Part shown: piece by piece, positions 10,866 to 28,910 of the stretch
Numbering within the stretch: position 1 is the first letter of the stretch
Layout of the letters: each line of letters starts with the position of its first letter
Assembly (NCBI RefSeq): GCF_900107375.1
Contig: NZ_FNPT01000001.1
Coordinates: 310,001-374,000, forward strand
Source of the DNA: Lysobacter sp. yr284
Lineage (GTDB): Bacteria > Pseudomonadota > Gammaproteobacteria > Xanthomonadales > Xanthomonadaceae
DNA: 64,000 bases
Reading direction: 5' to 3'
Notes under the pieces: generated by a model
The model's input: only the letters and a program-made list of their open reading frames with translations
What the model was told of the DNA's origin: nothing
Databases searched by the model: none
Translations under genes and position numbers: made by a program

Positions 10866-13800
10866 TCAGCCGGCCGTCGCGGCGGCCGCGAGCAGGCGGT
10901 CGAGCACCGACTTCAGCGCCAGCGGCTTGACCGGCTTGGCCAGCAGCGTGCGGCCCGCGGCCTGCACCGCGGCGCGCACCGACGCGCTGCCGTCGGCGCT
11001 GAGCAGCAGGCACGGGCGCGCGCCGAACTCGGCCTCCAGGCGCGCGGCCAAGGCCACGCCGGTGTCGTCGCGGTCGAGGTGGAAGTCGAACAGCCACAGC
11101 TGCGCCGGCGCCGCGCGCAGCGCCGCGCGCGCGCCGGCGTCGTCGGCGGCGGTGGCCACCTCGCAGCCCCAGCGCCGTAGCGTTTCGGCCAGCGCCGCCA
11201 GCGCCTGCGCGTCGTTGTCGACCGCGAGCACGCGCAAGCCCGCCAGCGCGCCGCGCGCGCCCGCCGGCAGCGGCGCCTGCGCCGCGCGCACCGCCGCCAC
11301 GCGCACGCCGAACGCGGTGCCGCGGCCGACCTCGCTGCGCAGGCTCAGCGGCGCCTGCAGCAATTGCGCGATGCGGTCGGCGATCGACAGGCCCAGGCCC
11401 AGGCCCTGCCCCGGCGCGTCCGGGCCGCGGCGGAATTCTTCGAAGATCGCCTCGCGCTGGGCCGGCTCGATGCCCGGCCCGGTGTCGTGCACCTCGATGC
11501 GCAGGCCGCCGCCGGCGCGGCGCACGCCCAGCAGCACGCGGCCGCGCGCGGTGTAGCGCACCGCGTTGGCGAGGAAGTTCTGCAGCACCCGCCGCAGCAG
11601 TTGCGGGTCGCTGCGCGTCCACGCGCGCGTGGGCACGTAGCGAAAGCGCAGGCCGCGCGCGGCGGCGATCGCGGCGAACTGCGCGGCCAGCGGGTCGAGC
11701 ACTTCGGCCAGCGGGAACTCGCGCGGCTGCGGCACCAGGCCGCCGGCCTGCAGCCGCGACATGTCCAGCAGCCCGGTCAGCAGATCGCCGGTGGATTCCA
11801 GCGCGCCGCCGATGCGCGCGACGGTGTCGCGCTGGGCCGGATCGTCGACCTGCTGGCTCAGCGCATCGGCGAACAATTGCGCGGCGTGCAGCGGTTGCAT
11901 CAGGTCGTGGCCGACCGCGGCGAGGAAGCGGCTCTTGGCCTCGTTGGCGCGCTGCGCCTCCTGGGTGGCCACTTCCAGGTCGGCGGTGCGCTCGGCCACG
12001 CGCTGCTCCAGGGTCTCGTTGGCCTGGATCAATCCGGCTTCGGCGCGGCGGAACGCGGTGACGTCGGTGAAGGTGGCGACGAAGCCGCCGCCGGGCATCG
12101 GATTGCCGCGGATTTCCAGGATGCTGCCGTCGGCGAGCACGCGCTCGGACAGGTGCGCGGTGCCGGCGCGCATGTAGGCCAGGCGCCGCTGCAGGGCGCG
12201 CTCGAGATCGCCCTGGAACGGCAGCCGGTGCATCGCCCAGCGCGCGAGGTCGGCGATCGGGCGGCCGACCTGCAGCAGCTCCGGCGGAAACGCGAACAGC
12301 TCGGCATAGCGCCGGTTCCACGCCACCAGCCGCAGTTGCGCGTCGACCACGCTGATGCCCTGGCTCATGTTCTGCAGCGCCGCTTCCAGCACCCGCTGGT
12401 TGAAGCGCAGGTCGGCCGAGGCTTCGCCGACGATCGCCGCGACCGTGTCGAGATCGCGCCCGGCCTCGCGCCGCGCCGCGTCGAGCAACACCCGCGCCGA
12501 CGACGAGCCCAGCACCGCGGCCAGTTCGCGCTCCACCCCGGCTTCCACCGCCGCCGCCACCGGCGCGCCGGTCGGCACGCCGTCGAGCAGCTGCGCCACG
12601 CGTTCGCGCGGCAAAAAGCGCAGGCCGGCGTTGCGCAGGGTCTGCGCGTCGAGGCCGCGGCGCGCGTGGCGGGCCGGCTCGCGCCGCCACAACGCGGCCA
12701 GGATCGTGACCAGGGTGCCGGCGAACAGGCTGGCGCCGACCGCGCGACCGAGCCGGCTCCAGCCGGTCAGGCCGAACAACCGCTCCGGCGCCAGCCATTC
12801 CAGGCCGAACGGGCCGTGCGCGAACCACGCCGGCGCGGCGCCGCGCACCTCGAACAGCATCGGCAGCAACAGCGTCCAGCACCACACCGCGAAGCCCGCG
12901 GCGATGCCGGCGATGGCCGCGCGCGCCGGCGTCTGCGGCCGCCACACCGCGAACGCCAGCGCCGGCGCCAGCGTCGCCAGCGCCGAGAACGAGACCGCGC
13001 CGACGTCGGCCAGCGCCTCGCTGCCGGCGATCAGGCGGCTGTAGCCCCAGGCCAGCAGCATGATCGCGAAGATGCCGGCGCGGCGCAGCGCCAGCACCCG
13101 CCCGCGCAGGTCGCGGTTGCGCGACCACGCGCCGCGCAGCAGGTTCGGCGCGAACCAGTGGTTGCCGATCATCAGGCTCAGCGTGAGCGTGCTGACCACG
13201 ACCATGCCGGTGGCGGCGCTGAGCCCGCCGAGGAAGGCGAACAGCGCCAGCGCCTGCTGCCCCTGCGCCAGCGGCAGCGCCAGCACGTACAGGTCCGAGG
13301 GCACCTGCGCACCGAGCAGGCGCTGGCCGAGCATCGCCACCGGCAGCACCGGCGCTGCGATCAGCAGCAGGTACAGCGGGAACTGCCAGCGCGCGGTGCG
13401 CACGTCGCGCTCGTCGCGGCATTCCACCACCGCGACATGGAACTGGTGCGGCAGGATGAACATCGCCAGCGCGCCGAGCAGCACCAGCGGCGCGAACCCG
13501 CCGGCCGGGGCGCCGGCCGGCGCCGGCGCGGCCGGCGCCGGCGGCAGCGCATCCAGGCCGAACCACACGAACGCGCCCAGCGCCAGCATCGCCGCCAGCT
13601 TGAACACCGACTCGAACGCCATCGCCAGCACCAGGCCGCGGTTGTGCTCGGCGGCGCTGGCGCGGCGGGTGCCGAACAGCATCGCGAACAGCGCCATCGC
13701 CAGCGCCACGTACAGCGCGCTGTCGCGCCAGGCCGGCAGCGCGGCGCCGTCGGTGGCGCGGGTGGTGAGCATGGCGAAGCTCATCGCCACCGCTTTCAAC

Positions 13801-14204
13801 TGCAGCGCGATGTAGGGAATCAGGCCGAGCGCGGCGACCAGGGTCACCAGCGCGGCCAGCCACGCGTCCTTGCCCAGGCGGGTGGCGATCAGGTCGGCCA
13901 GCGAGGTGGCGTTGGTCTCGCGCGCCAGCCGCACCAGCTTGACCATGAAGCCCACGGCCAGCGCATAGAACAGGATCGAGCCGAGGAAGGTCGGCGGCAG
14001 CGGCCAGCCGTAGCGCGCGGCCTGGGTGACGGTGCCGTAGAAGGTCCACGAGGTGCAGTGCACCGCCAGCGACAGCGCGTAGATGTGATGCCAGTGGCGC
14101 GCCAGCACGCCCGGCCGGCGCTCGGCGAACAGCGCGGTGCCGAACATCAGCGCCAGCCAGGCCAGGCTGGCCAGGGCGACGGTGGTAAGGCTCAGCATGG
14201 GCAT
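10866..14204 (-). CDS. Transporter-fused hybrid histidine kinase (CrbS/MxtR-like)
   Basis: This 1112-residue protein combines a sodium:solute symporter-like membrane domain of about 12-13 helices (residues about 1-530), a linker with a PAS domain (near 620-740), a HisKA domain with phosphoacceptor His766 in Gly-His-Asp-Leu-Met-Gln-Pro-Leu, an HATPase_c domain with Asp-Thr-Gly-Pro-Gly-Ile, and a C-terminal receiver with Asp1040. This order is that of CrbS/MxtR acetate-switch kinases. It is probably an inner-membrane sensor that couples solute passage to phosphotransfer, with the convergent NarL-type regulator as target. Met at 14198 is an alternative start. The ligand (acetate or another short acid) is inferred. 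Confidence 0.9.
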   Translation of the reverse strand: MPMLSLTTVALASLAWLALMFGTALFAERRPGVLARHWHHIYALSLAVHCTSWTFYGTVTQAARYGWPLPPTFLGSILFYALAVGFMVKLVRLARETNATSLADLIATRLGKDAWLAALVTLVAALGLIPYIALQLKAVAMSFAMLTTRATDGAALPAWRDSALYVALAMALFAMLFGTRRASAAEHNRGLVLAMAFESVFKLAAMLALGAFVWFGLDALPPAPAAPAPAGAPAGGFAPLVLLGALAMFILPHQFHVAVVECRDERDVRTARWQFPLYLLLIAAPVLPVAMLGQRLLGAQVPSDLYVLALPLAQGQQALALFAFLGGLSAATGMVVVSTLTLSLMIGNHWFAPNLLRGAWSRNRDLRGRVLALRRAGIFAIMLLAWGYSRLIAGSEALADVGAVSFSALATLAPALAFAVWRPQTPARAAIAGIAAGFAVWCWTLLLPMLFEVRGAAPAWFAHGPFGLEWLAPERLFGLTGWSRLGRAVGASLFAGTLVTILAALWRREPARHARRGLDAQTLRNAGLRFLPRERVAQLLDGVPTGAPVAAAVEAGVERELAAVLGSSSARVLLDAARREAGRDLDTVAAIVGEASADLRFNQRVLEAALQNMSQGISVVDAQLRLVAWNRRYAELFAFPPELLQVGRPIADLARWAMHRLPFQGDLERALQRRLAYMRAGTAHLSERVLADGSILEIRGNPMPGGGFVATFTDVTAFRRAEAGLIQANETLEQRVAERTADLEVATQEAQRANEAKSRFLAAVGHDLMQPLHAAQLFADALSQQVDDPAQRDTVARIGGALESTGDLLTGLLDMSRLQAGGLVPQPREFPLAEVLDPLAAQFAAIAAARGLRFRYVPTRAWTRSDPQLLRRVLQNFLANAVRYTARGRVLLGVRRAGGGLRIEVHDTGPGIEPAQREAIFEEFRRGPDAPGQGLGLGLSIADRIAQLLQAPLSLRSEVGRGTAFGVRVAAVRAAQAPLPAGARGALAGLRVLAVDNDAQALAALAETLRRWGCEVATAADDAGARAALRAAPAQLWLFDFHLDRDDTGVALAARLEAEFGARPCLLLSADGSASVRAAVQAAGRTLLAKPVKPLALKSVLDRLLAAAATAG

Positions 14205-14522: not shown

Positions 14523-16775
14523 TCAGAAGTCGTACTTGACCGTCAGCGAGTACTGGCGCGGCGCGCCGTAGAACCCGGTGTACACGCCCAGCGCGGAGTT
14601 CAGGCTGTAGCCGGTGGTGCGGTATTCCTTGTCGGCCAGGTTGCTGCCCTGCAGCGACACCGTCCACGGGCCCTGGCTCTTCCAGGTGACGCCGGCGTTG
14701 ATCAGGCCGTAGCCGTCCTGGGTGATCGGCACCGCGCCGGTGCGCACGATCTCGGTAGTGGCGACCACCTCGCTCTGGTAGCTGTAGCCCACCCGCGCCG
14801 ACAGGTTGCTGCCGTCGGACAGGTCGGTGCGGTACTCCACGTTGAGCGCGCCGGAGAACTCGGGCGCGTTGGTGAACTCCTGCTCCTTGGCGATGTTGAC
14901 GCCGGCGTACATGAACTCGTCGTACTTGGCGTCGAGCCAGGCCAGGTTGCCCGAGATCAGCCAGTTCTGGCTCGGCAGCCACTGGTACTCGACTTCCAGG
15001 CCCTGCACCGTGCCCTTGCCGGCATTGGTGAAGTCGCCGAAGAACGCGTCCTCGGTGCCGTCGCCGTTGCTGTCGTAGGCGGTGAACACCGACAGCTGGA
15101 TGTCCTTGTACTTGTTGTGGAAGTACGACAGGTTCAGGAACATGCGCTGGTCGAAGAAGGCCATCTTGGTGCCCAGCTCGTAGCTGTCGACGACCTCGTC
15201 GTCGAACGGCTCGGCCGAGCGCGGCACCGCCGCGGCCTGGGCGCGGATGTTGTAGCCGCCGGACTTGAAGCCGCGCGTGGCCAGGCCGTAGACCATGACG
15301 TCCGGCGTAACCTGGTAGTCGAGCGAGACCTTCGGCGAAGTGTTCTTGAAATTGATCTTGCGGTCGAAGTTGGCCAGGATCGCGCCGCTGGGCACGGTGA
15401 AGCTGGCGTCGCGGTAGCCCTGGTTCAACACCTTGGCGCGCTTGTCCTCGTCGGTGTAGCGCGCGCCGACGTCGAGCTTGAGCTTGTCGGTCAGGTCGAA
15501 CGTCCAGTCGGCGTAGAACGCCAGCGACTCGGTGTAGACCGTGCCCTGGGTGTCGCCGAAGCTGGCGTTGAAGAAGTTGTTGAGCACCTGGCCGCCGGCC
15601 GAGCCGTCGAAGGCGTACACGCCCATCACGCCGCGCGCGCGGCCGCCGCCGTCGTAGTTGGCCTGCAGCTCGTGGCTGACCTGCTCGTCGCTGTAGAACG
15701 CCTTCACGTCGGCGATCTTGTTCGGCAGGGTGTCGAAGTCGATGTTGGTCTCGGTGTCGGACTCGCGCTTGGCGATGACGTACTTGAACGCCCAGTCCTC
15801 GTTGGCGCGCCAGTTGACCACCGCCGACACGCCCTTGATCGTGGTGTCGTTGACGTTGGGCATGCCGCTGCGGATGTCGTAGCGGTCGTCCAGCGGCGCC
15901 AGGCCCGGGGCGAAGCGGTTGGGCGCCAGCATCCTGGCGCCGCGCACGCCGGACTGGTCGTCCATCCAGTCGAACGCGAACTGGATGTCGAGCGCGTCGC
16001 TGACGTAGGCGCCGAGGCTGCCGCGCAGGGCCAGGATTTCCTTGTCGCTGACGTCCTGGCCGGTGAGCCGGTTCTCGCCGAAGCCGTCGCGGTTGAGGCT
16101 GGCCACCGACAGGCGCCCGCGCAGGGTGGCGTCGCCGCCCTGGGTCGGGCCGCCGATCGGGCCGGCGACCGCGGCCTTGACGTCGAGCTGGCCGTAGTTG
16201 CCGACGGTGACCGCGGCGAAGCCGTCGAACTGGGTCGGCAGGCCGCGCGAGATGTACTTGATCGCGCCGCCGATGGTGTTCTTGCCGTACAGCGTGCCCT
16301 GCGGGCCGCGCAGCACTTCGATGCGCTCGACGTCGAACACGTCCAGCAGCGCGCCCTGCGGACGGGCGATGTAGACATCGTCCATGTAGATGCCCACGCC
16401 CGGATCCACGCCCCACAGCGGATCGGACTGGCCGACGCCGCGGATGTAGGCGGTGATGGTGCTGGAGGAACCGCGCGCGGCGTAGATGGTCAGGTTCGGC
16501 ACCTGCGCGTCGAGGTCGCTGAGGTCCTCGACGTTGAGCCGGTCCAGCGCCTCGGGCGTGAACGCGGTGATCGCCACCGGCACTTCCTGCAGGGTTTCCT
16601 CGCGCTTGCGCGCGGTGACGGTGATCGCGCCGAGGTTCTTGGCTTCGGCCGCGGCCGGCGCGGCGTCCTGCGCCCAGGCCGCCGGCGCCAGCAGCGCGGA
16701 GGCGACGGCGCACGCGAGCGCGGCGCGGCGGGCGCCGCCATGACGGCCTTGGGAGTGTCGGTTGATGCGGATCAC
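14523..16775 (-). CDS. TonB-dependent outer-membrane receptor
   Basis: This 750-residue protein starts with a signal peptide ending Ala-Trp-Ala-Gln. An N-terminal plug follows (Ile-Thr-Val-Thr-Ala-Arg-Lys-Arg-Glu-Glu near residue 52, later Arg-Ile-Glu-Val-Leu-Arg-Gly-Pro-Gln-Gly and Thr-Ile-Gly-Gly-Ala-Ile), then a beta-barrel ending in Phe after Ser-Leu-Thr-Val-Lys-Tyr-Asp. It should import a ligand using TonB energy. GTG at 16775 is chosen because the signal peptide starts there and GGGAGGG lies upstream. It is divergent from a GntP-type permease, so both may serve one substrate. No siderophore genes are nearby. Confidence 0.9.
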   Translation of the reverse strand: MIRINRHSQGRHGGARRAALACAVASALLAPAAWAQDAAPAAAEAKNLGAITVTARKREETLQEVPVAITAFTPEALDRLNVEDLSDLDAQVPNLTIYAARGSSSTITAYIRGVGQSDPLWGVDPGVGIYMDDVYIARPQGALLDVFDVERIEVLRGPQGTLYGKNTIGGAIKYISRGLPTQFDGFAAVTVGNYGQLDVKAAVAGPIGGPTQGGDATLRGRLSVASLNRDGFGENRLTGQDVSDKEILALRGSLGAYVSDALDIQFAFDWMDDQSGVRGARMLAPNRFAPGLAPLDDRYDIRSGMPNVNDTTIKGVSAVVNWRANEDWAFKYVIAKRESDTETNIDFDTLPNKIADVKAFYSDEQVSHELQANYDGGGRARGVMGVYAFDGSAGGQVLNNFFNASFGDTQGTVYTESLAFYADWTFDLTDKLKLDVGARYTDEDKRAKVLNQGYRDASFTVPSGAILANFDRKINFKNTSPKVSLDYQVTPDVMVYGLATRGFKSGGYNIRAQAAAVPRSAEPFDDEVVDSYELGTKMAFFDQRMFLNLSYFHNKYKDIQLSVFTAYDSNGDGTEDAFFGDFTNAGKGTVQGLEVEYQWLPSQNWLISGNLAWLDAKYDEFMYAGVNIAKEQEFTNAPEFSGALNVEYRTDLSDGSNLSARVGYSYQSEVVATTEIVRTGAVPITQDGYGLINAGVTWKSQGPWTVSLQGSNLADKEYRTTGYSLNSALGVYTGFYGAPRQYSLTVKYDF

Positions 16776-16910
16776 GATGGCTGTCCCTCCCCCGGGAGCT
16801 GGATGCGAATGGTTGCCGGTGGCTGTGCGCAAGCGGCGCGCAGCGCCCCGCGCCGCGCAGTCCCCCGTCATGGCGCACAGCCTAGGAGGCGGCCGCCGCG
16901 CCCGGCAGCT

Positions 16911-18418: not shown

Positions 18419-18497
18419 GGGAGGGGCTTCGGCCCCGATGCTGTTCGTTCCGCTCGCGGCGATCCGGCACAAGAGCATCGGGGCCGAAGCCCCTCCC
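18419..18497. repeat. Long inverted repeat (family B variant)
   Basis: A perfect 24-base arm (18419-18442) is repeated inverted at 18474-18497 around a 31-base loop. Its core GGGAGGGGCTTCGGCCCCGA resembles the GGGAGGGCCTTCAGGCCCGA core near 36397. It could terminate the permease transcript and insulate the following operon. Confidence 0.8.
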
Positions 18498-18587: not shown

Positions 18588-19499
18588 GTGACCATCGGCG
18601 AATACTCGCAGATCTACCGCGGCAAACGCGTCGTCGAATTCCGCATGGGCGCCACGCCCGCCGGCGGCGACGTGGTCTACCGGCTGACCCAGGACTACGA
18701 CAGCGAAGAGAGGCAGCGCGACCTGCTCGACGACTTCCTGTCCAAGGTCGATCCGGCCGAACTGGAAACCCTGATCGTCGGCGCCTGGAGCGAGGCCCAC
18801 GACGAAGGCCCGCAGGGCTACATCGACGCGCTGATCGAATACCGCGCCAAGCTGCCCAAGCTCACCGCGCTGTTCTTCGGCGACATGACCTACGAGGATT
18901 GCGAGATCTCGTGGATCACCCAAAGCGCCTACAACCCGCTGCTGGCCGCGTTCCCGCAGCTGCAGTCGCTGCGCATCCGCGGCTCGACCAACCTGGAGCT
19001 GCAGGCGTTCTCGCACGACGCGCTGGAAGAGCTGGCGATCGAATGCGGCGGCCTGCCGAGCAAGATCGTCGACGCCGTCGCCGGTTCCACCCTGCCCGCG
19101 CTCAAGCACCTGGAGCTGTGGCTGGGCAGCGACAACTACGGTTTCGACGGCGGCATCGCCGCGTACCAGAACCTGCTCGCCAAGATCGGCCCCGAGCGCC
19201 TGCGCTACCTGGGCCTGCGCGATTCGGAAATCAGCGACGAGCTGGCCGTGTGGCTGGCGCAGCAGCCGTGGCTGGGCTCGCTGCAGAGCCTGGACCTGTC
19301 GCTGGGCACCATCGGCGACGTCGGCGCGCAGGCGCTGGCCGAAAGCCCGAACCTCGGCGCGCTGGAGCGCATCGACCTGAGCCACCACTACATTTCGGAA
19401 CAGTGGCAGGCCAAGCTGCGCGCGCTGCCGTGCCAGGTGGTGCTCGACGATCCCGAGGAAGAGGACGACGGCGACCGCTACGTGGCGGTATCCGAGTAA
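18588..19499 (+). CDS. STM4015 family leucine-rich-repeat protein
   Basis: This 303-residue acidic protein has leucine-rich-repeat-like segments across residues about 120-290 (for example Leu-Gln-Ser-Leu-Arg-Ile, Leu-Lys-His-Leu-Glu-Leu, Leu-Gln-Ser-Leu-Asp-Leu). No signal peptide is present. It is the first gene of the STM4015-4014-4013-4012-4011 cassette; families are named after Salmonella Typhimurium loci and have no known function. The GTG at 18588 is supported by AAGGAG seven bases upstream. A large open frame continues upstream but crosses the permease gene in another frame and is not coding. A scaffold or recognition role is possible. Confidence 0.85.
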   Translation: MTIGEYSQIYRGKRVVEFRMGATPAGGDVVYRLTQDYDSEERQRDLLDDFLSKVDPAELETLIVGAWSEAHDEGPQGYIDALIEYRAKLPKLTALFFGDMTYEDCEISWITQSAYNPLLAAFPQLQSLRIRGSTNLELQAFSHDALEELAIECGGLPSKIVDAVAGSTLPALKHLELWLGSDNYGFDGGIAAYQNLLAKIGPERLRYLGLRDSEISDELAVWLAQQPWLGSLQSLDLSLGTIGDVGAQALAESPNLGALERIDLSHHYISEQWQAKLRALPCQVVLDDPEEEDDGDRYVAVSE

Positions 19500-19506
19500 A
19501 CAGCGC

Positions 19507-20658
19507 ATGGCCCCGCCCGGCTGGCTGTTGATCGGCCCGCGCGACAGCCGTCGGCTGCGCGGGCTGCAGCTGGCCCTGCGCGAGCGCGGCCTGGCCGCGG
19601 CCGAGGAGCTGCACTACGAGGACCTGCTCGCCGCGCCGCAGCGCGCGGCCGAGCGCATCGCCGCCCGGCCGGGCGCGCTGGTCAAGATCGAATCGCCGGG
19701 CGAAGCCCCGGCCCTGCATGCGGCCCTGGTCGAGCGCGGCTGGCGCGCGCTCGGCGCGCCCGGCGCGCCGCCGCAGCCGCTGCGCCACGGCGAACTGGCG
19801 CACCAGCATTACTGGTACGCCGGTTTTCGCCAGTTGCTCGACGCCCTGCCCGCGCGCGCCGGGTATCTGAACCCGCCCGATGACATCGCCGGCATGAGCG
19901 ACAAGCTCGCCTGCCAGCTGCGTTTGCGCGCGCAGGGCATCGCGATCCCGCCGCTGCTCGGCGAACTGCACGGCTACGAACACCTGCGCGCGCTGCTGCG
20001 CGAGCACGGTACCGGCCAGGTGTTCGTCAAGGCCCGCTACGGGTCCTCCGGCGCCGGCGTGCTGGCCTATCGCGCCAATCGCGGCGGGCGCGAGGCGGCC
20101 TACGGCTCGGCCGAGCTGGACGCCGACGGCAACGGCGCGCGCGTGTTCAACTCGCTCAAGCCGCGGCGCTACGACGCCGCCGCGCAGATCGCCGCGCTGG
20201 TCGACGCGATCGCCGCGCAGGGCGCCTATGTCGAGCGCTGGATTCCCAAGCCGCGCGCGCCCGACGGCGACGGCGGCCACTACGACATCCGCGCGGTCGC
20301 CCTGGACGGCTTCCTGCGCCACCGCGTCGCCCGCGTCGGCCGCGGCCCGCTGACCAACCTGCACCTGGGCAACCGCCGCGGCGCGCTGGCGCACTGGCTC
20401 GACGACGCCGCCATGCACGCGCTGGAGATCGCCACCCAGCAGGCGGCGATGGCGTTCCCGCGCAGCCGCATGATCGGCTTCGACCTGATCCTGCGCGAGG
20501 GCCGCAGCTGGGTGCTGGAAGCCAACGCCTTCGGCGACCTGTTGCTCGACCTGCCGTGGCAGGGCCTGAGCACCTACCAGGACCAGGCGCTGCTGCGCCC
20601 GGTGCCGGCGTCCAACGCCCCGCAAGCGCCGCACGCGCCGGAGCCGGCGCATGCCTGA
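19507..20658 (+). CDS. STM4014 family ATP-grasp protein
   Basis: This 383-residue protein has an ATP-grasp layout: Met-Ser-Asp-Lys-Leu near residue 132, the nucleotide-lysine strand Val-Phe-Val-Lys-Ala-Arg-Tyr-Gly-Ser-Ser-Gly-Ala-Gly near 173-185, and the metal-binding Val-Leu-Glu-Ala-Asn-Ala-Phe-Gly-Asp near 338. ATP-grasp enzymes join a carboxylate to an amine or thiol through an acyl-phosphate. It starts seven bases after the STM4015 stop and overlaps the next gene by eight bases. The substrate is unknown. Confidence 0.85.
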   Translation: MAPPGWLLIGPRDSRRLRGLQLALRERGLAAAEELHYEDLLAAPQRAAERIAARPGALVKIESPGEAPALHAALVERGWRALGAPGAPPQPLRHGELAHQHYWYAGFRQLLDALPARAGYLNPPDDIAGMSDKLACQLRLRAQGIAIPPLLGELHGYEHLRALLREHGTGQVFVKARYGSSGAGVLAYRANRGGREAAYGSAELDADGNGARVFNSLKPRRYDAAAQIAALVDAIAAQGAYVERWIPKPRAPDGDGGHYDIRAVALDGFLRHRVARVGRGPLTNLHLGNRRGALAHWLDDAAMHALEIATQQAAMAFPRSRMIGFDLILREGRSWVLEANAFGDLLLDLPWQGLSTYQDQALLRPVPASNAPQAPHAPEPAHA

Positions 20659-21484
20659 CGCCGGCGCCCGCTACGACAACCCCGACATGCGCGCCGTGGT
20701 CGGCCGGCGCGACCTGTTGCTGGTCACCCTCGACACCCTGCGCTTCGACGCGGCGCAGGAATGCTTCGCGCGCGGCGAGCTGCCGGTGCTGGCGCGGCAC
20801 CTGCACGCGCAAGGCTGGGAACGCCGGCACACGCCCGGCAGCTTCACCTACGCCGCGCACGCCGCGTTCTTCGCCGGCTTCCTGCCGACGCCGGCGCGGC
20901 CCGGGCCGCACCCGCGCCTGTTCGCGCTGGAGTTCGAAGGCAGCGAGACCACCGCCGCCGGCACCCACGTGTTCCGCGACCGCGCCGACATCGTCTCGGG
21001 CCTGCGCGACGCCGGCTACCACACGATCTGCATCGGCGGCGTCGGCTTCTTCAACAAGCGCAATCCGCTGGGCTCGCAGCTCCCCGGCCTGTTCGACGAA
21101 AGCCACTGGCACCCCGGCCTGGGCGTGACCGCGGCGGATTCGACCGAGCGCCAGGTCGCGCTGGCCTGCGAACGCCTGGGCAGCCAAGCGCTGCGCGACC
21201 AGCGCTGCTTCGTGTTCGTCAACGTCAGCGCCCTGCACCAGCCCAACCGCCACTACCTGCCCGGCGCGGACGCCGACGGCTACGCCAGCCACTGCGCCGC
21301 GCTGCGCTACGTCGACGCCGCGCTGGCGCCGCTGCTGGACGCGCTGCGCGCGCGCGGCGGCGCCTTCGCCATCGTCTGTTCCGACCACGGCACCGCCTAC
21401 GGCGAGGACGGCTTCCACGGCCATCGCCTCGCCCACGATACGGTGATGACCGTGCCCTACGCGCATTTCTTCCTCGATCCATGA
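20651..21484 (+). CDS. STM4013/SEN3800 family hydrolase
   Basis: This 277-residue protein belongs to the alkaline-phosphatase/sulfatase superfamily. The first metal-ligand strand is Val-Thr-Leu-Asp28-Thr29-Leu-Arg-Phe-Asp, and the distal site is Cys-Ser-Asp-His-Gly-Thr with a downstream His-Gly-His-Arg. The Cys/Ser-x-Pro-x-Arg sulfatase signature is absent, and Thr29 or a residue in Gly-Ser-Phe-Thr-Tyr-Ala may be the nucleophile. No signal peptide is visible, so it acts in the cytoplasm. The start overlaps the STM4014 stop and the stop overlaps the STM4012 ATG (ATGA). Confidence 0.85.
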   Translation: MPDAGARYDNPDMRAVVGRRDLLLVTLDTLRFDAAQECFARGELPVLARHLHAQGWERRHTPGSFTYAAHAAFFAGFLPTPARPGPHPRLFALEFEGSETTAAGTHVFRDRADIVSGLRDAGYHTICIGGVGFFNKRNPLGSQLPGLFDESHWHPGLGVTAADSTERQVALACERLGSQALRDQRCFVFVNVSALHQPNRHYLPGADADGYASHCAALRYVDAALAPLLDALRARGGAFAIVCSDHGTAYGEDGFHGHRLAHDTVMTVPYAHFFLDP

Positions 21485-22869
21485 ACGCCGTCGCCGACCC
21501 AACCGCTGCCCCGAGCCTGGCCGAACTGCTGCGCCTGCCGCCGTACCAGGCCTATTCGTATTCCTATCCGCACAAGACCGCCTACCGCCCGCTGCAGCCG
21601 CCGCGCGGCCTGCGCGAACTGTGGGCCGGCGAACCGCGCGACTCGCTGTTCCTGTACCTGCACGTGCCGTTCTGCAGCTACCGCTGCGGCTTCTGCAACC
21701 TGTTCGCGCTGGCGCGGCCGGAGCCGGCCAAGGTCGAGCGCTACCTCGACCAGATGGAGCGCCAGTTGCGCGCCACCTGCGAGGCGCTGGACGAGCACCG
21801 CTTCGTCCGCTTCGCCATCGGCGGCGGCACCCCGAGCTATCTCGACGCGGCGCAGCTGCGGCGCCTGTTCGCGATGGTCGAGCGCCACGCCCGCATCGAC
21901 CTGCACGCGATCCCCGCCGGCATCGAGGTCTCGCCGGAAACCGTCGACGCCGAAAAGATGCGGCTGTGCCGCGAGCGCGGCATCGACCGGGTCAGCATGG
22001 GCATCCAGAGCTTCAGCGAGGCCGAGGTGCGCGCGCTGGTGCGGCCGCAGCAGCGCGCGGTGGTCGAGCAGGCCATCGCCGAGATCGGCGCCGCCGGCAT
22101 GCCTACGCTAAATCTCGACCTGATCTACGGCATCGCCGGGCAGACCGTCGCCAGCTTCCTGGCCTCGATCGACAGCGCGCTCGAACACCGCCCCGAAGAG
22201 CTCTACCTGTATCCGCTGTACGTGCGCCCGCTGACCGGCCTGGGCCGGATCGAGGCCAAGTTCGAAGCCAAGGCCGGTGCGCGCCTGCCGCTGCAGGCCG
22301 AGCCGATGGACGAACGCCTGGCCCTGTACCAGGCCGGCCGCGACCGCCTGCTCGCCGCCGGCTACCAGCAGGTGTCGATGCGCATGTTCCGCGCGCCGCA
22401 CGCGCCCGACATCGCCGCGCCGGTGTACTGCTGCCAGAGCGACGGCATGGTCGGCGTCGGCTGCGGCGCGCGCTCGTACACCTCGAGCCTGCACTACTCC
22501 AGCGAGTACGGCGTGGCCCGGCGCAGCGTCGCCGAGATCCTCGACCATTACCTGGAACGCGACCAAGCCTCCTTCGCCGCCGCCGACTACGGCATCGCCC
22601 TGGGCGAGGAAGAGCGCCGGCGCCGGCACGCGATCCAGTCGCTGCTGATCCGCCCCGGCCTGGACCGCGCCGACTACCGCCGCCGCTTCGGCGCCGACTG
22701 CCTGGAGCAATTGCCGCAGCTGCGCGAACTGTTCGAGCATGGCCTGGCCAGCGCGGGCGCCGAGCTGATCGAGCTGACCGACGCCGGCCTCGCCCGCGCC
22801 GACACCATCGGCCCGTGGCTGGCCTCGGCGGCCATCGTCGAACGCATGCGCGACTACCGCCTGGGCTGA
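21481..22869 (+). CDS. STM4012 family radical SAM protein
   Basis: This 462-residue protein carries the radical SAM cluster Cys65-x3-Cys69-x2-Cys72 in a His-Val-Pro-Phe-Cys context and Gly-Gly-Gly-Thr-Pro-Ser, as in the HemN/HemW group. A C-terminal domain of about 180 residues follows the barrel. HemW-like proteins may be coproporphyrinogen-oxidase relatives or methyltransferases; the cassette context argues against haem synthesis. The start overlaps the preceding stop by four bases, and the next gene starts four bases after its stop. It should use a 4Fe-4S cluster and S-adenosylmethionine. Confidence 0.88.
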   Translation: MNAVADPTAAPSLAELLRLPPYQAYSYSYPHKTAYRPLQPPRGLRELWAGEPRDSLFLYLHVPFCSYRCGFCNLFALARPEPAKVERYLDQMERQLRATCEALDEHRFVRFAIGGGTPSYLDAAQLRRLFAMVERHARIDLHAIPAGIEVSPETVDAEKMRLCRERGIDRVSMGIQSFSEAEVRALVRPQQRAVVEQAIAEIGAAGMPTLNLDLIYGIAGQTVASFLASIDSALEHRPEELYLYPLYVRPLTGLGRIEAKFEAKAGARLPLQAEPMDERLALYQAGRDRLLAAGYQQVSMRMFRAPHAPDIAAPVYCCQSDGMVGVGCGARSYTSSLHYSSEYGVARRSVAEILDHYLERDQASFAAADYGIALGEEERRRRHAIQSLLIRPGLDRADYRRRFGADCLEQLPQLRELFEHGLASAGAELIELTDAGLARADTIGPWLASAAIVERMRDYRLG

Positions 22870-22873
22870 GCGC

Positions 22874-23725
22874 ATGCACCTGTCCGTGCTCTATCGCGGT
22901 CGCCTGAGCAGTTGCAACTACGACTGCGGCTACTGCCCGTTCGCCAAGACCTACGACAGCCGCGAGGCGCTGCGCCGCGACGCCGCCGACCTCGCCCGCT
23001 TCGTCGAATGGGCCGGGCAGCAGCGCATGGATCTGTCGATCCTGTTCACCCCCTGGGGCGAAGGCCTGGTCCGCCGCCACTACCGCGAGGCCCTGGTCGC
23101 GCTGAGCCGGATGGCGCACGTGCGCCGCGCCGCGATCCAGACCAACCTGTGCGTCGGCCTGCGCTGGCTCGACGACGCCGACCTGGGCAAGCTCGCGCTG
23201 TGGTGCACCTACCACCCGACCCAGGTCGGCCGCGCCGCGTTCCTGGCCCGCTGCCGCGAACTGAGCCGGCGCGGCGTGCGCCACAGCGTCGGCATGGTCG
23301 GCTTGATCGAGGACCTCGACGAGATCGAGGCGGTGCGGCGCGAACTGCCCGCGGCGACGCCGATGTGGGTCAACGCCTTCGACCCGCGCCCGCCGGACTA
23401 CTACGACGCCGCCCAGATCGCGCGGATCGAAGCCATCGACCCGCACTTCCGCTACAACCTCGCGCCGTCGCCGAGCCTGGGCGCGCCGTGCCTGACCGGC
23501 GAGAGCGTGGTCTCGGTCGACGGCAACGGCGACGTGCGCCGCTGCCACTTCGTCGACCAGCCGCTGGGCAACCTCTACGACGGCAGCTTCGCCGCCCAGC
23601 TGCGCCAGCGCGCCTGCCCGAACGCGCGCTGCGACTGCTACATCGGCTACGCCCACCGCCCCGACCTGCCGTTCCAGCGCGATTACGCCGGCGGCGTACT
23701 GGAACGGGTGCCCTCGTTCGTCTAG
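22874..23725 (+). CDS. STM4011 family radical SAM protein
   Basis: This 283-residue protein has the cluster motif Cys14-x3-Cys18-x2-Cys21. Near the C terminus are further cysteines (Arg-Arg-Cys-His-Phe, Ala-Cys-Pro-Asn-Ala-Arg-Cys-Asp-Cys), which could bind an auxiliary cluster as in SPASM-type enzymes. It is the last gene of the five-gene operon. Two different radical SAM enzymes beside an ATP-grasp protein suggest stepwise modification of one substrate (inference). No short precursor-peptide gene is evident next to it. Confidence 0.88.
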   Translation: MHLSVLYRGRLSSCNYDCGYCPFAKTYDSREALRRDAADLARFVEWAGQQRMDLSILFTPWGEGLVRRHYREALVALSRMAHVRRAAIQTNLCVGLRWLDDADLGKLALWCTYHPTQVGRAAFLARCRELSRRGVRHSVGMVGLIEDLDEIEAVRRELPAATPMWVNAFDPRPPDYYDAAQIARIEAIDPHFRYNLAPSPSLGAPCLTGESVVSVDGNGDVRRCHFVDQPLGNLYDGSFAAQLRQRACPNARCDCYIGYAHRPDLPFQRDYAGGVLERVPSFV

Positions 23726-25417: not shown

Positions 25418-26695
25418 TCAAGCGCCGCCTGTGGCGAGACGCGCCAACCGGGACGACGCGGCCACGGCCCGCAACGGCAAGTCGTCGCTGCCCACGTCGA
25501 TGCACACCACACGCAGCAGCGGCTGTCTCGCACCGGCGCCCGGCAGGCGGAACGCAGTCGGATGCGCGCCTTCCAGGCCGCGATGCCAGGGATAGATCAG
25601 CGCGACCTCCTCGCAGGGATACACGCTGGCGTAGGCGTTGAGCTGATACACGTGCGCGTCGCCCGGCACCAGTCGGCCCACTCGGTCCATCTCCAGCCGG
25701 CTCCACTTGGTGTCGGCGACCGCCAGCACCTGCGTCCCCTCGCGCAAAACCAGATCGGGGCGCAGCCGGAAGAACGGACGATCCGGCTCGGACTCCAGGG
25801 TCGCCAGGCTGAAGCCTCCGTCCTGCGCGCTCAGGTGCCAGCCGGCGGCGAAGGCGCGGCCACGCAGGCGGGTCGCCACCGCGGCCTCGAACAAGCGGTT
25901 CATGTCGAACAGCAACTCCGGCGCCTGGCTCGCGCCTGCGCGCAGGTCGGGCGAAAGCAGCCTCAGGATCCATCCGGCCCACTGCAGCGCGGCCGCATAG
26001 TGATGCACCTGGCGGTCCGAGGCCAACGTCGCCTGCAACGCCAGCGCATCGTGCCGGACCGACACCTCGTCCAAAGCCGCCGCCATCTCCAGCCACAGCC
26101 GGCCCGACTCCAGTCCGCGCGCCCATGGCCGCACCGCCAGCAGCGCGGCCTTCAGCACCTGATTCCAGGGATTGTCGAGGGTCAGTTCGTCGAACCGGCA
26201 GGCGAGCCGGTCCACCCGCATCGCATGCACCGCGGCCTGGCGCTGCAGCAACATGCGTCCGCGCACCACGCCGAGGTCGTCTTCCCGGGTCCGGTAACGC
26301 CGCAGCAGACCGGCCCGCACCAGTTGCAGCAAAGCCCGCAGGTAGGCCAGGACGAACACGTCCAGCAGCTCGCACTGGCGCAGCCCATGGCCGACTCCGC
26401 CCTGCTCGAACGCGGGCAGGTCGTAGGCCAGGCGCAGCATCCGCAGCAGCGTGCCGCGCCCCTGCGCGGGATCGGCGTCCTCGCCGATCTTCGGCAGCAC
26501 TTCGAGCACGCGCCCGCCCAGGTTCACCAGCCCCACATACTGCGCGAGCCGCAGCGAACGGTGGCCGAGCGAACAGAACCCGCGGCGTTGCTGGGCCACG
26601 CGCGCGAGCAGCGCGGCTTCCGCCGGGGTCAGGTCGGCGCCTTCGCCGACCGAAAGCGTCTGGTGTTCGCTGGCGGTAAGCGCGGGCGCGGCCAC
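25418..26695 (-). CDS. mcrC: McrC family nuclease subunit
   Basis: This protein of about 425 residues belongs to the McrC family. The N-terminal part has Glu-His-Gln-Thr-Leu and Gln-Tyr-Val-Gly-Leu-Val, and the C-terminal PD-(D/E)xK nuclease core is Arg-Pro-Asp-Leu-Val-Leu then Ala-Asp-Thr-Lys-Trp. With McrB it cleaves methylated DNA in type IV restriction. I prefer GTG at 26695, four bases past the mcrB stop; ATG at 26776 would give a 77-base overlap and an Arg-rich leader outside the family. It forms an operon with mcrB. Confidence 0.88.
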   Translation of the reverse strand: MAAPALTASEHQTLSVGEGADLTPAEAALLARVAQQRRGFCSLGHRSLRLAQYVGLVNLGGRVLEVLPKIGEDADPAQGRGTLLRMLRLAYDLPAFEQGGVGHGLRQCELLDVFVLAYLRALLQLVRAGLLRRYRTREDDLGVVRGRMLLQRQAAVHAMRVDRLACRFDELTLDNPWNQVLKAALLAVRPWARGLESGRLWLEMAAALDEVSVRHDALALQATLASDRQVHHYAAALQWAGWILRLLSPDLRAGASQAPELLFDMNRLFEAAVATRLRGRAFAAGWHLSAQDGGFSLATLESEPDRPFFRLRPDLVLREGTQVLAVADTKWSRLEMDRVGRLVPGDAHVYQLNAYASVYPCEEVALIYPWHRGLEGAHPTAFRLPGAGARQPLLRVVCIDVGSDDLPLRAVAASSRLARLATGGA

Positions 26696-26699
26696 CGCG

Positions 26700-28910
26700 T
26701 CAGTCCACGCCGGCCGCGGTTTCGTACAACGCTCGGAACGCCTGCGCCGTCCATCGCGACGGATCGGTGGTTTCATGGCGGGCGCGCTCCATCGCGCCCA
26801 CGTCCTGATGGCCGAACAGTTCGGCCGCGCGCACCACCCGCGTTTCCACGAACGGCGAGCGGCCGTCGCGGCCCGACAAGACCTGCGCGATGCGGCTCCA
26901 ATCGTCGAAGAAGTACTCCTGCAGCAGCGGAATCACCTGCAATCGGAACGCCGCGCGCAAGTCGTCCAGGCTCGCCACCCGGCTGAAGTAGGCGTGGCCG
27001 ATGCGACGATCGCGGTCGAGCAGGAATTCCAGCCGGTCGTTGACCGCCTGGAGCAGCCGCCCCAGGTGAACGTCCTCGATTCGGCGCTCCAGCACCTGGT
27101 AATTAGGCGGCACCTCCTCGAATTCGAAGCGCCGGCGCAGCGCGATGTCGAGCAACGCGATGGAGCGGTCGGCGGTGTTCATCGTGCCGTAGAGGTCCAG
27201 GTTCTCCGGCACGCCGAAGCGCTCGTCGTCGCCGTCCTCGCCGCCGGTCCCTGGCAGTTGCACCTCCATGCCACGCGCCAGCGCGCCGCCGGCGTCGTAG
27301 CGCGCGCGCTTGTCCGGCTCGATCAGGGTGATGAGTTCCCCGAACACCTTGGCGATGTTGGCACGGTTGATTTCATCGATGAACAGCGCGTACGGCTTGC
27401 TCGGATTGGCCCGCGCTTCGGCGCAGATCTGCTTGAACACGCCATCGACCATGCGAAAACCGGTCGAGACCGCCCCGTCGCCGCCTTCGGCGGCCACCGG
27501 GCGCAGCCCGATCACGAAGTCCTCGTACGAATACGACGGATGGAACGTCACCACGCGATAGCGCAGGATCGGCCGCCCGGCCGAACCCGGCCCAGCCTTC
27601 CAGGCATCGGCCAGTTCCGCCGCCTCGGCATCGACCTCGCGCCAGTCTCCGACCACCGACCAGTCGGAGCTTTCGCTCTTGACGAACACGTAGGGCGCGC
27701 GCCGGTCCGCGACGTTGACCGTGGCGACCTCAAGCGGGGTATGGCTCTGCATGTACCCCCATAAGGTTGCGCGGACGCCGTTTCGCTTGCGCTGCGCTGC
27801 CTTTGCCTTGATCAGTTCGTGCTGTTCCAGCGCGGTGACCTTGACCGGCTTGCCGAGGTCGGCCAGCGCCGCGGCGATCACCGCGCGCCAGCCGAACCGC
27901 GACACCAGGCCCAACGCCCAGGTCGGCCGATCCACGTCGGCCGGCTGGTCGGTGTACTGCTTGAACAGTTGCTGCAGGCGCCAGGTCTTGCCGGTGCCGG
28001 GCGGTCCGTACAGGATCAGGTTGCGCGCGGCCGGCCGCAGCGCGTAGGCGACGTCCGGCTCCCTCACCGCAAGCGCCTCCTCGTCCTCCTCGGCGCTGTC
28101 GTCGGTTTCGTTGGGCTCCTTCCAGCTCTCGCGCAGCGGTTCCAGGTAGAAATCCAGGTCGGTGGTGGCGTAGCGCTGCTCCTGCTGCCCGCGCAAGGCC
28201 AGCAACGCCTCGTCCAGATCGCGGTCGCTCCAACGCCGGGTCTGCTTCATCGACGCCACGCCGAATCCCGCCAGCACCTTGCGCCGGTCGCCGTTGGTCG
28301 ACATGCGCTCGACCCGCTCCGGAAACAGGAAATAACGCAGCATGTGACGGAACTGGCGGTCGCCGTCGCGCGGCACCGTAGCCATCCAGTCCATGAATCG
28401 GTCGTAGTCGGCGAACGCCGCGGCGCGGTCCTGCGGCGGCAGCGCCTTGATCGCCCGCCCCAGCGCAATGATGTAGATCACTTCGCGCCAACGGTTGGTG
28501 TTGACCCCCATGCCCGCGGAACCAATGCCGCCCAGCAGCGCGTCTGCCAGCATCGGATGGCTCGGGTCCAGCGCCTCGCCGGACCAGTCCCACACCCGCA
28601 CCACGCCTTCGCGCTTGGTCTGCGCGGTGATGTTGCTGGGGAACAGGAACAGCGCCCACAGCACCTCGGCCATCAACTTTCGCGCGTCCGGCGGCGCATC
28701 CGCCAATTGGATGCGCAGCTTGTCGTAGAACCCCCCGTCTCCCGCCTCGGGCCGCTGCACGAAATAAAGGTCCAGGGCATCGAAGTTCGCAGCCGTGCCG
28801 GTTGCGTCGGCGCCGAACACGCTGCCGTCGCCGACCAAGCTGGCCTGCACCCAACGGCGGCCGGCGGCGACGACGGCCGGCGCATCGTGGTGATAAGTGT
28901 AAAGCGACAT
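26700..28910 (-). CDS. mcrB: McrB family AAA+ GTPase/ATPase
   Basis: This 736-residue protein has an N-terminal region of about 250 residues of unknown specificity and an acidic linker. The AAA+ motor carries Walker A Gly-Pro-Pro-Gly-Thr-Gly-Lys-Thr (302-309), Walker B Phe-Ile-Asp512-Glu513-Ile-Asn-Arg, and the McrB signature Met-Asn-Thr-Ala-Asp-Arg-Ser followed by an Arg-rich finger. It powers McrC on modified DNA. It is longer than E. coli McrB (about 460 residues), the extra length being N-terminal. The start at 28910 is preceded by GGGAGGT. The operon lies beside a tRNA array, a usual defence-gene position. Confidence 0.9.
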   Translation of the reverse strand: MSLYTYHHDAPAVVAAGRRWVQASLVGDGSVFGADATGTAANFDALDLYFVQRPEAGDGGFYDKLRIQLADAPPDARKLMAEVLWALFLFPSNITAQTKREGVVRVWDWSGEALDPSHPMLADALLGGIGSAGMGVNTNRWREVIYIIALGRAIKALPPQDRAAAFADYDRFMDWMATVPRDGDRQFRHMLRYFLFPERVERMSTNGDRRKVLAGFGVASMKQTRRWSDRDLDEALLALRGQQEQRYATTDLDFYLEPLRESWKEPNETDDSAEEDEEALAVREPDVAYALRPAARNLILYGPPGTGKTWRLQQLFKQYTDQPADVDRPTWALGLVSRFGWRAVIAAALADLGKPVKVTALEQHELIKAKAAQRKRNGVRATLWGYMQSHTPLEVATVNVADRRAPYVFVKSESSDWSVVGDWREVDAEAAELADAWKAGPGSAGRPILRYRVVTFHPSYSYEDFVIGLRPVAAEGGDGAVSTGFRMVDGVFKQICAEARANPSKPYALFIDEINRANIAKVFGELITLIEPDKRARYDAGGALARGMEVQLPGTGGEDGDDERFGVPENLDLYGTMNTADRSIALLDIALRRRFEFEEVPPNYQVLERRIEDVHLGRLLQAVNDRLEFLLDRDRRIGHAYFSRVASLDDLRAAFRLQVIPLLQEYFFDDWSRIAQVLSGRDGRSPFVETRVVRAAELFGHQDVGAMERARHETTDPSRWTAQAFRALYETAAGVD

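Follow-up and report, generated by a model that had tools for sequence, protein, structure and literature searches.

The five genes STM4015, STM4014, STM4013, STM4012 and STM4011 form an operon that holds together as a genuine unit across at least seven phyla of bacteria, and its leucine-rich-repeat (LRR) protein, STM4015, ends in a conserved tail closed by glutamate. We rate the chances as about even that STM4015 is itself the substrate (carrier or precursor) of STM4014–4011, with the chemistry taking place at its C-terminal tail. The window, i.e. the whole analysed stretch of 64,000 nucleotides from Lysobacter sp. yr284, contains the five open reading frames at 18588–23725, with spacings of +7, −8, −4 and +4 bases. 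The features are as follows (NCBIfam scores in bits against the curated cut-off):

18588..19499, + strand: STM4015 leucine-rich-repeat protein, proposed substrate or carrier (GTG start, 303 aa; NF038076, 323.4 against 275)
19443..19475, + strand: STM4015 acidic linker, residues 286–296, joining the LRR domain to the tail
19476..19496, + strand: STM4015 conserved C-terminal tail R297-Y-V-A-V-S-E303, proposed modification site
19507..20658, + strand: STM4014 ATP-grasp ligase (383 aa; NF038074, 317.4 against 175; RimK, LysX and ArgX nearest by profile and fold)
20651..21484, + strand: STM4013/SEN3800 alkaline-phosphatase-superfamily hydrolase (277 aa; NF038075, 388.6 against 250)
21481..22869, + strand: STM4012 HemN-like radical SAM protein (462 aa; NF006067, 578.7 against 380)
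22874..23725, + strand: STM4011 radical SAM protein with SPASM/twitch-like auxiliary-cluster cysteines (283 aa; NF038073, 372.6 against 200)

The layout and spacings given by the initial annotation were reproduced, and all five products exceeded the cut-off of their family. All five families owe their database names to Salmonella loci, and three of the models belong to the type 'hypoth_equivalog', without a reaction. A literature search by family names returned no functional study, only two passing mentions in tables.

The operon and its neighbourhood

All five genes were found together in 82 of 87 STM4015 loci among the matches listed, across at least seven phyla, which is far above chance. 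One of these 82 is L068, in which STM4014 is present. Four of the five loci without the full set were limited by the contig end (L023, L040, L066 and L077). In L067 (Thiomargarita), 4015–4014 was followed by a Fic-domain gene and weak 4014-like pieces; in the same genome, STM4013 was on a separate contig and 4012 and 4011 were not adjoining. The loci from genome contigs were the best 80 of at least 591 STM4015 relatives, so the sample leans towards close kin of the window. Two loci (L007 and L008) had an STM4013-like gene and no STM4015; they are part of the STM4013 count (84) and lie outside the 87 STM4015 loci. L001 and L002 were excluded from one of the tallies of locus gene content, and an alignment with two rows out of frame was set aside.

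In the 198 Actinomycetota genomes sampled, STM4015, STM4014, STM4013 and STM4011, the four families covered by this genome-wide comparison, all occurred in the same five genomes. The initial annotation had proposed one pathway and had named genes lying mostly apart in other genomes as the finding that would speak against it. The genes were together in the 82 loci, and four of the families coincided in the Actinomycetota sample; the five form one unit, so a single pathway is likely. Among the loci listed, the 4015–4014 pairing persisted where the operon order was permuted, and some loci had tandem STM4015 copies with a single enzyme set. Pairwise distance correlations were 0.57–0.66 for 4015 against the others and 0.66–0.87 among 4014–4011. 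The lower values would be compatible with either a faster-evolving substrate or a loosely coupled scaffold, and they carry no weight.

Flanking genes were clustered across 89 loci (clustering alone for the flanks of most), and no universal sixth gene appeared. The biggest cluster (39 members in 31 loci) was a chain of signalling-type proteins, as judged by eye from the first residues. It lay mostly 2.5–8 kb off the operon, with 4 of the 39 members within 500 bases. The big clusters within 1.5 kb were each limited to one lineage, except for the gene of a GEVTGHxH protein of 98–112 aa (8 loci), which recurred as a pair with a DUF6745 gene in a subset of loci. The DUF6745 model matched in 5 of the 198 Actinomycetota genomes: three matches were ≤2 kb from the operon and two were in operon-less genomes. 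It had no match in the window's genome and none in the controls either, so this absence is weakly shown. A HAD hydrolase gene lay between 4014 and 4013 in four loci (L072, L076, L080 and L087), and a HAD hydrolase gene was found near the operon in L005 and L009. Hence, the constant extra partners that the initial annotation had suggested looking for were not found, and the HAD phosphatase and the DUF6745 pair recur in subsets.

To look for a precursor, we made an all-against-all comparison of 1022 stop-to-stop stretches drawn from the gaps and 800-base flanks in 21 representative loci. It revealed no small ORF (20+ codons) that was conserved at blastp E≤0.001; very short or fast-evolving peptides may escape this search. 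The HAD gene was alone in recurring in four loci, and each further group spanned two. A separate precursor peptide gene was thus ruled out at this sensitivity. There was no Pfam match to PqqD among the five operon proteins, and flank clustering showed no constant protease gene near the operon.

A role in anti-phage defence was rejected: the PADLOC models yielded a single weak, partial hit on the operon proteins (PDC-M51A, 36 bits, on STM4012). A viral or phage origin was rejected on a pattern scan of viral contigs, which revealed no STM4015 relative. Three records of the phage collection matched STM4013 at 37% identity each; they are named Salmonella or Escherichia and are probably host DNA.

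The C-terminal tail of STM4015

STM4015 ends in a mostly acidic linker followed by a tail with the conserved pattern R-[YF]-x-x-[VLI]-[GSAT]-E-COOH. Variants include PALTE in Paenibacillus and a divergent tail in Salmonella. Among the matches listed, the terminal Glu was present in 93 of 93 copies (26 of 26 for copies with <60% identity) and Arg at −7 in 92 of 93. Linker and tail together comprised 18–25 residues past position 285 in 92 copies and 34 in one. The linker sequence was variable; the share of D/E ahead of the last seven residues had a median of 54% and a minimum of 0% (93 copies). The tail is conserved at the protein level. No such Glu-ended tail was found at the C-termini of the other four operon proteins, and none of the other ORFs scanned in the fetched loci had a tail of the STM4015 type. 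The tail is also a core-like conserved segment beside modifying enzymes, as expected of a RiPP.

We checked whether an ATGA overlap with the following gene dictates the terminal Glu. This was ruled out, as Glu was kept in 66 of 66 non-overlapping copies (25 copies overlapped, based on approximate predicted starts, and two had no next gene). In the window's own genome, STM4015 was the only match to the tail pattern. Across 14 genomes, the pattern gave 31 matches, compared with 24 for a control pattern, and 15 of the 31 were STM4015 copies by position. The pattern overlooks some true tails, e.g. that of the second STM4015 copy in G469. A widespread tag on other proteins was thereby ruled out for the fetched loci and the 14 genomes.

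The AlphaFold2 model of STM4015 had a pLDDT of 92.5 overall and 82 for residues 291–300. The solved relative 2ra8 aligned nearly to the same C-terminal end and, by alignment position, has an N-terminal extension. The Bacteroidota copy in L146 bears a WGR domain.

The four enzymes

Judging by sequence, the catalytic residues of the operon enzymes are intact. The nearest relatives of STM4014 by profile and fold were ArgX/LysX and RimK, and the closest folds were ArgX-LysW and LysX; in the VIA look-up used here, the absence of a family from the list does not exclude it. An NCBIfam scan at E≤0.001 matched only NF038074 and no LysX/ArgX family. ArgX/LysX and RimK are described as ligating amino acids onto the C-terminal end of a protein (PMC10433800, PMC7343187). 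As the nearest solved relatives of STM4014 modify protein C-termini and STM4015 has a conserved Glu-ended tail, we regard the LRR protein itself as the probable precursor or carrier.

The CX3CX2C cluster was intact in 82 of 82 aligned STM4012 and 82 of 82 aligned STM4011 sequences among the matches listed; in STM4012, the cysteines are C65, C69 and C72 (82/82). STM4012 aligned along the core with HemN (1olt, E 6e-58) and NocN (9p2u, E 3e-34), but Leu74 (82/82) occupies the site of the further Cys of HemN, two residues past CX3CX2C. The HemN-like class binds two SAM. The HemN model TIGR00538 scored 142.9 on STM4012, far below its cut-off of 324.95. In STM4011, five further cysteines after the barrel were invariant (C206, C224, C248, C253 and C255, 82/82), and the auxiliary region of SkfB matched (E 8e-4). 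A SPASM profile search, proposed earlier as a check, was divided in its outcome: PF13186 reached 14.8 bits, below the gathering score of 21.5, while the conserved auxiliary-cluster cysteines and the SkfB match pointed to such a region.

STM4013 matched Pfam PF00884 with 27.3 against a cut-off of 25, and D28, T66, H70, H196, D222, D245, H246 and H262 were invariant in 84 sequences among the matches listed. At the presumed nucleophile site (position judged by eye), an invariant Thr lies in FTxxxH (T66 and H70, 84/84), and Thr66 is the likely nucleophile. The signature of formylglycine-type sulfatases is Cys/Ser-x-Pro-x-Arg, and this motif was absent at the site. Of the phosphate or sulfate removal assumed initially, phosphate chemistry is therefore favoured and sulfate removal looks less likely.

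Proposed chemistry and alternatives

In the mechanism that we propose, the folded LRR domain of STM4015 would be the recognition 'leader', and the chemistry would take place on the tail R-[YF]-V-A-V-[SGAT]-E, held on the mostly acidic linker. The tail is fairly probably the substrate; that STM4014 acts at its terminal Glu has slightly less than an even chance. STM4014 would activate the carboxylate of this Glu and couple an amine or amino acid. Next, the adduct or the Arg-Tyr beside it could undergo C-C, C-methyl or oxidative chemistry through STM4012 and STM4011. STM4013, in some cases together with the HAD phosphatase, may strip a phosphoryl group or free the product, which would be either released (carrier or RiPP-like) or kept on STM4015. 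The order and kind of the steps after ligation are speculative. More tentatively, the folded LRR protein may be a gene-encoded carrier: a RimK/LysX-type ligase would load it at the C-terminal Glu, where the two radical SAM enzymes would build a small molecule or a redox-active Arg-Tyr-derived group.

The initial annotation saw an LRR scaffold and no precursor peptide. Neither statement is supported as worded, given the strongly conserved, Glu-ended tail and STM4015 as the probable precursor or carrier. If the tail is the substrate, the orphan enzyme set gains a testable one, and the question is no longer which metabolite the cell contains but which mass this C-terminus has gained. A large folded domain could then stand in for a RiPP leader or a LysW-type carrier. 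The carrier reading, if true, would give at least seven bacterial phyla a biosynthetic logic that lies between those of amino-group carriers and of RiPPs.

A docking role of the tail is unlikely. Here, it would act as a short linear motif that brings STM4014 or some other partner to an LRR scaffold, and the true substrate would be a diffusible small molecule. In favour, docking motifs typically combine a linker with a short conserved stretch, the pLDDT of the tail was moderate and no precursor-like extra ORF was found in the 21 representative loci. However, the most conserved tail position is the terminal residue itself, and the enzymes nearest to STM4014 have a protein C-terminal end as substrate. 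A purely structural C-terminus, which would cap the LRR domain or thread into it and owe its conservation to stability alone, would fit the pLDDT of 82, the fairly steady length of the stretch after position 285 and the nearly shared end of 2ra8. This is improbable, as the mostly acidic and variable linker is unlike a packed cap and packing alone does not explain the invariant Glu.

The pathway as first envisaged, acting on an unrelated small molecule with an LRR scaffold and a tail without functional role, agrees with the co-occurrence of the genes and with the missing separate precursor gene (21 representative loci). It does not predict the conserved tail, the tandem STM4015 copies beside a single enzyme set or the lasting 4015–4014 pairing in permuted operons, and we consider it distinctly improbable. 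The chances are poorer still that STM4014 only polyglutamylates the STM4015 C-terminus to yield a regulatory adaptor, with the radical SAM enzymes acting elsewhere. RimK is among its top relatives by profile and fold, and the WGR domain in L146 and the N-terminal extension of 2ra8 would suit an adaptor, but simple glutamylation does not need 4013-4012-4011, which are nearly always co-operonic (82 of 87 listed loci).

The proposed use of STM4015 as substrate has partial parallels. LysW is described as a zinc-binding protein that ends in EDWGE and is linked at Glu54 (PMC10433800). STM4015 likewise combines an acidic stretch with an aromatic residue and ends in an invariant Glu, next to an ATP-grasp ligase. 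Unlike LysW, it is a 303-aa LRR protein with a RYVAVSE-like tail, and the literal EDWGE motif is absent from its tails; STM4014 has no NCBIfam LysX match and sits among genes for two radical SAM enzymes and a hydrolase. RimK is reported to add glutamates to the C-terminus of ribosomal protein S6/RpsF (PMC7343187). STM4014 shares its ATP-grasp fold and motifs, but it is proposed to act on an LRR protein encoded in its own operon, alongside radical SAM enzymes and a hydrolase. On TglA, a 50-residue peptide extended from cysteinyl-tRNA, 3-thiaglutamate is described as being assembled at the C-terminal end of the ribosomal scaffold before its release (PMC9016710), whereas the present operon uses ATP-grasp and radical SAM enzymes. 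Radical SAM RiPP enzymes (PQQ, mycofactocin, Arg-Tyr-linked RRR peptide) are described as linking Glu-Tyr, Val-Tyr or Arg-Tyr within gene-encoded peptides (PMC8326336). In contrast to these systems, no short precursor ORF, PqqD match or constant protease gene was found in the searches above, and a folded LRR domain would take the part of the 'leader'; the tail itself contains Arg-Tyr, Val and Glu.

The operon and its surroundings in the window

The five open reading frames proposed in the initial annotation were recovered with their spacings of +7, -8, -4 and +4 bases, and all five family calls were above the curated NCBIfam cut-offs.

18588-19499: STM4015, LRR protein
19507-20658: STM4014, ATP-grasp protein
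20651-21484: STM4013/SEN3800, hydrolase
21481-22869: STM4012, radical SAM enzyme
22874-23725: STM4011, radical SAM enzyme

The genome has a size of 6.25 Mb. The closest STM4015 relative among the matches listed from the genome collection was found in Lysobacter enzymogenes (92% identity). The following features flank the operon.

10872-14198 (-): large hybrid histidine kinase with PAS domain and receiver
14529-16871 (-): TonB-dependent receptor
18419-18442 and 18474-18497: GGGAGGGGCTTCGGCCCCGATGCT and its reverse complement, forming a perfect inverted repeat of 24 bases a short distance upstream of the operon
25424-26695 and 26703-28853 (-): McrBC component gene and AAA ATPase gene, downstream of the operon

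The inverted repeat resembles a dispersed REP-type element and is a candidate for one. The two downstream genes are perhaps a methylation-dependent restriction pair.

Occurrence of the operon across bacteria

One genome-contig scan yielded at least 591 STM4015 relatives. The best 80 of these were fetched and combined with six plasmid loci and the window, giving the set of 87 loci on which the following counts are based. According to the titles and taxonomy lines of the records, the loci belong to Pseudomonadota, Actinomycetota, Bacillota, Bacteroidota, Cyanobacteriota, Deinococcota and Planctomycetota. The complete five-gene set was present in 82 of the 87 loci, and four of the five incomplete loci were truncated by contig ends. 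The usual gene order was 15-14-13-12-11. Among the 81 loci read as complete by automated gene picking, 74 had this order with a single STM4015 and five had it with a second, tandem copy. One locus carried an extra STM4015 on the other strand after STM4011, and one was permuted (13-12-11-15-14). Overall, two STM4015 genes per enzyme set were found in 6/87 loci, five of them tandem.

Three phylum samples were not selected by family. In Pseudomonadota (299 genomes), our genome alone was above the STM4015 cut-off, and one other gave a weak match. The Actinomycetota sample (198 genomes) was centred on, and counts, one known carrier; the identical five genomes were above the cut-off for STM4015, STM4014, STM4013 and STM4011, and each locus contained all five genes. 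Of 198 Bacteroidota genomes, two had STM4015 matches, one slightly below the cut-off and the other being the sample centre, and both had all five genes. Hence, the operon is rare, has a patchy distribution and travels as a complete set, on plasmids too. The initial annotation treated the genes as one unit, to be doubted if they were mostly apart elsewhere; in the 87 loci and the Actinomycetota and Bacteroidota samples they were together, and this doubt falls away.

Four loci were exceptions. In two Thiomargarita loci (L066 and L067), STM4015 and STM4014 occurred without the other three genes adjoining; L066 is a 4.4-kb contig, and STM4013 of the L067 genome lies on another contig. The block 13-12-11 preceded 15-14 in L069 (Pirellulales) and L146 (Bacteroidota). 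As STM4015 and STM4014 remained paired in all four loci, they look as if they were the inner pair of the operon. Behind the pair in L067 (11278-12796) lie a Fic-domain gene and weak pieces resembling STM4014.

DUF6745 proteins and proteins of 98-112 aa with GEVTGHxH adjoined the operon in eight loci (L003, L004, L005, L074, L082, L084, L086 and L089), and DUF6745, checked alone, was near it in the genomes G415, G469 and G490. The genera with these neighbours were Streptomyces, Deinococcus and Methylobacterium. The N-terminal sequence of the DUF6745 protein appeared repeat-like by eye in L004 and L005. In a Salmonella 'plasmid' record (L009, NZ_CP019203.1), ompL, typA and glnA are neighbours of the operon, and three 'phage' records (H16-H18) carry STM4013; these records look like chromosomal or host DNA.

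The C-terminal tail of STM4015

STM4015 ends in a seven-residue tail, R-[YF]-x-x-[VLI]-[GSAT]-E. Among 93 copies from the 87 loci (including the best 80 of at least 591 relatives), the terminal Glu was found in all 93, as was one of the small residues G, S, A or T at -2. Arg at -7 and V/L/I at -3 were each found in 92, and Tyr/Phe at -6 in 91. After thinning to <60% identity (n=26), Glu was kept in 26, Arg in 25 and Tyr/Phe in 24. Seven additional copies, including an unlinked second STM4015 ~100 kb from the operon in G469, all had the terminal Glu, and six had Arg at -7. The tail codons varied synonymously, and the terminal Glu was kept in all 66 copies without next-gene overlap. From position 285, the end was 18-25 residues away in 92 of the 93 copies and 34 in one. 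In the linker before the tail, a median of 54% of the residues were acidic (minimum none); in the second copies of L079 and L082, the linker was basic and the tail was unchanged.

No conserved last residue was found in STM4014, STM4013, STM4012 or STM4011 from the same representative loci, and apart from STM4015 none of the 19121 closed ORFs in the fetched loci carried the tail motif. In 14 genomes, the pattern matched 16 times outside STM4015 versus 24 times for a reversed control pattern. In our genome, STM4015 was the sole match. A weak LRR relative (L002) was without such a tail, with no other operon gene within its 3.6-kb locus.

The predicted STM4015 structure had a pLDDT of 92.5 overall, 82 at residues 291-300 and 65 at 301-303. 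The Bacteroides fragilis protein 2ra8 (profile E 1e-83) is a solved relative and is titled 'uncharacterized'. Its alignment runs through to the final residues and includes, ahead of position 354, an acidic stretch and YSYPMIT. In L146 (8329-9438, -), the STM4015 copy has a WGR domain at its N-terminus, and 2ra8 has an N-terminal extension similar in length.

The enzymes and a possible substrate role of STM4015

STM4013 is a member of the alkaline phosphatase superfamily, with a PF00884 score of 27.3 bits against a cut-off of 25. D28, T66, H70, H196, D222, D245, H246 and H262 were invariant in 84 sequences. By its position in FTxxxH, T66 would be the nucleophile, not formylglycine. A Thr nucleophile is used by phosphodiesterases and phosphotransferases. 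At least six loci (annotated flanks) have an HAD hydrolase alongside the operon, which fits phosphate chemistry as the presumed STM4013 step.

STM4012 aligned with HemN along most of its length and with the methyltransferase NocN along the core, and it retains CX3CX2C. Leu replaces a further HemN Cys in 82/82 sequences, so by this test STM4012 is not a coproporphyrinogen oxidase. STM4011 has CX3CX2C and five additional invariant Cys (82/82). The initial annotation suggested profile searches for SPASM in STM4011. The Pfam SPASM profile stayed below its cut-off, and the STM4011 profile matched the SkfB auxiliary-cluster region (E 8e-4) and also anSME.

Within gene-encoded peptides, radical SAM enzymes form Glu-Tyr (PqqE), Val-Tyr (mycofactocin) and Arg-Tyr links (RRR), as described in PMC8326336. 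By analogy, the tail Arg-Tyr and terminal Glu of STM4015 are plausible targets. The simplest account using all parts of the operon is that STM4015 is its substrate. The LRR domain would be a recognition module, joined by the linker to the tail, which would be offered to STM4014 and both radical SAM enzymes. The chief rival is that the same conserved tail is a docking motif. As a substrate, STM4015 would be similar to LysW, with a terminal Glu and an ATP-grasp enzyme, or to a RiPP precursor whose leader is a folded domain. The system lacks some defining features of each and was therefore assigned to neither.

The gene families are already known in annotation. A literature search covering few subscription papers found no functional study of STM4011-4015, SEN3800 or NF038073 and no paper naming 2ra8/Q64V53. 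Published mentions of family members were apparently in tables, and the papers found on radical SAM enzymes with LRR, ATP-grasp, RiPP and sulfatase do not concern this operon, judging by title and abstract. The operon would be a variant of protein-carried biosynthesis, a kind already known.

STM4013-like hydrolases also occurred outside the operon, on plasmids of Streptomyces albidoflavus and Kitasatospora.

L007, 7690-9853, and L008, 6765-10181: cluster different from the operon, with a small protein sharing a PIPVND stretch, the STM4013-like hydrolase and a NUDIX protein

The L008 cluster additionally contains a MoaA-like radical SAM protein and a thymidylate-kinase-like protein, and the L007 cluster a lasso-B2-like transglutaminase.
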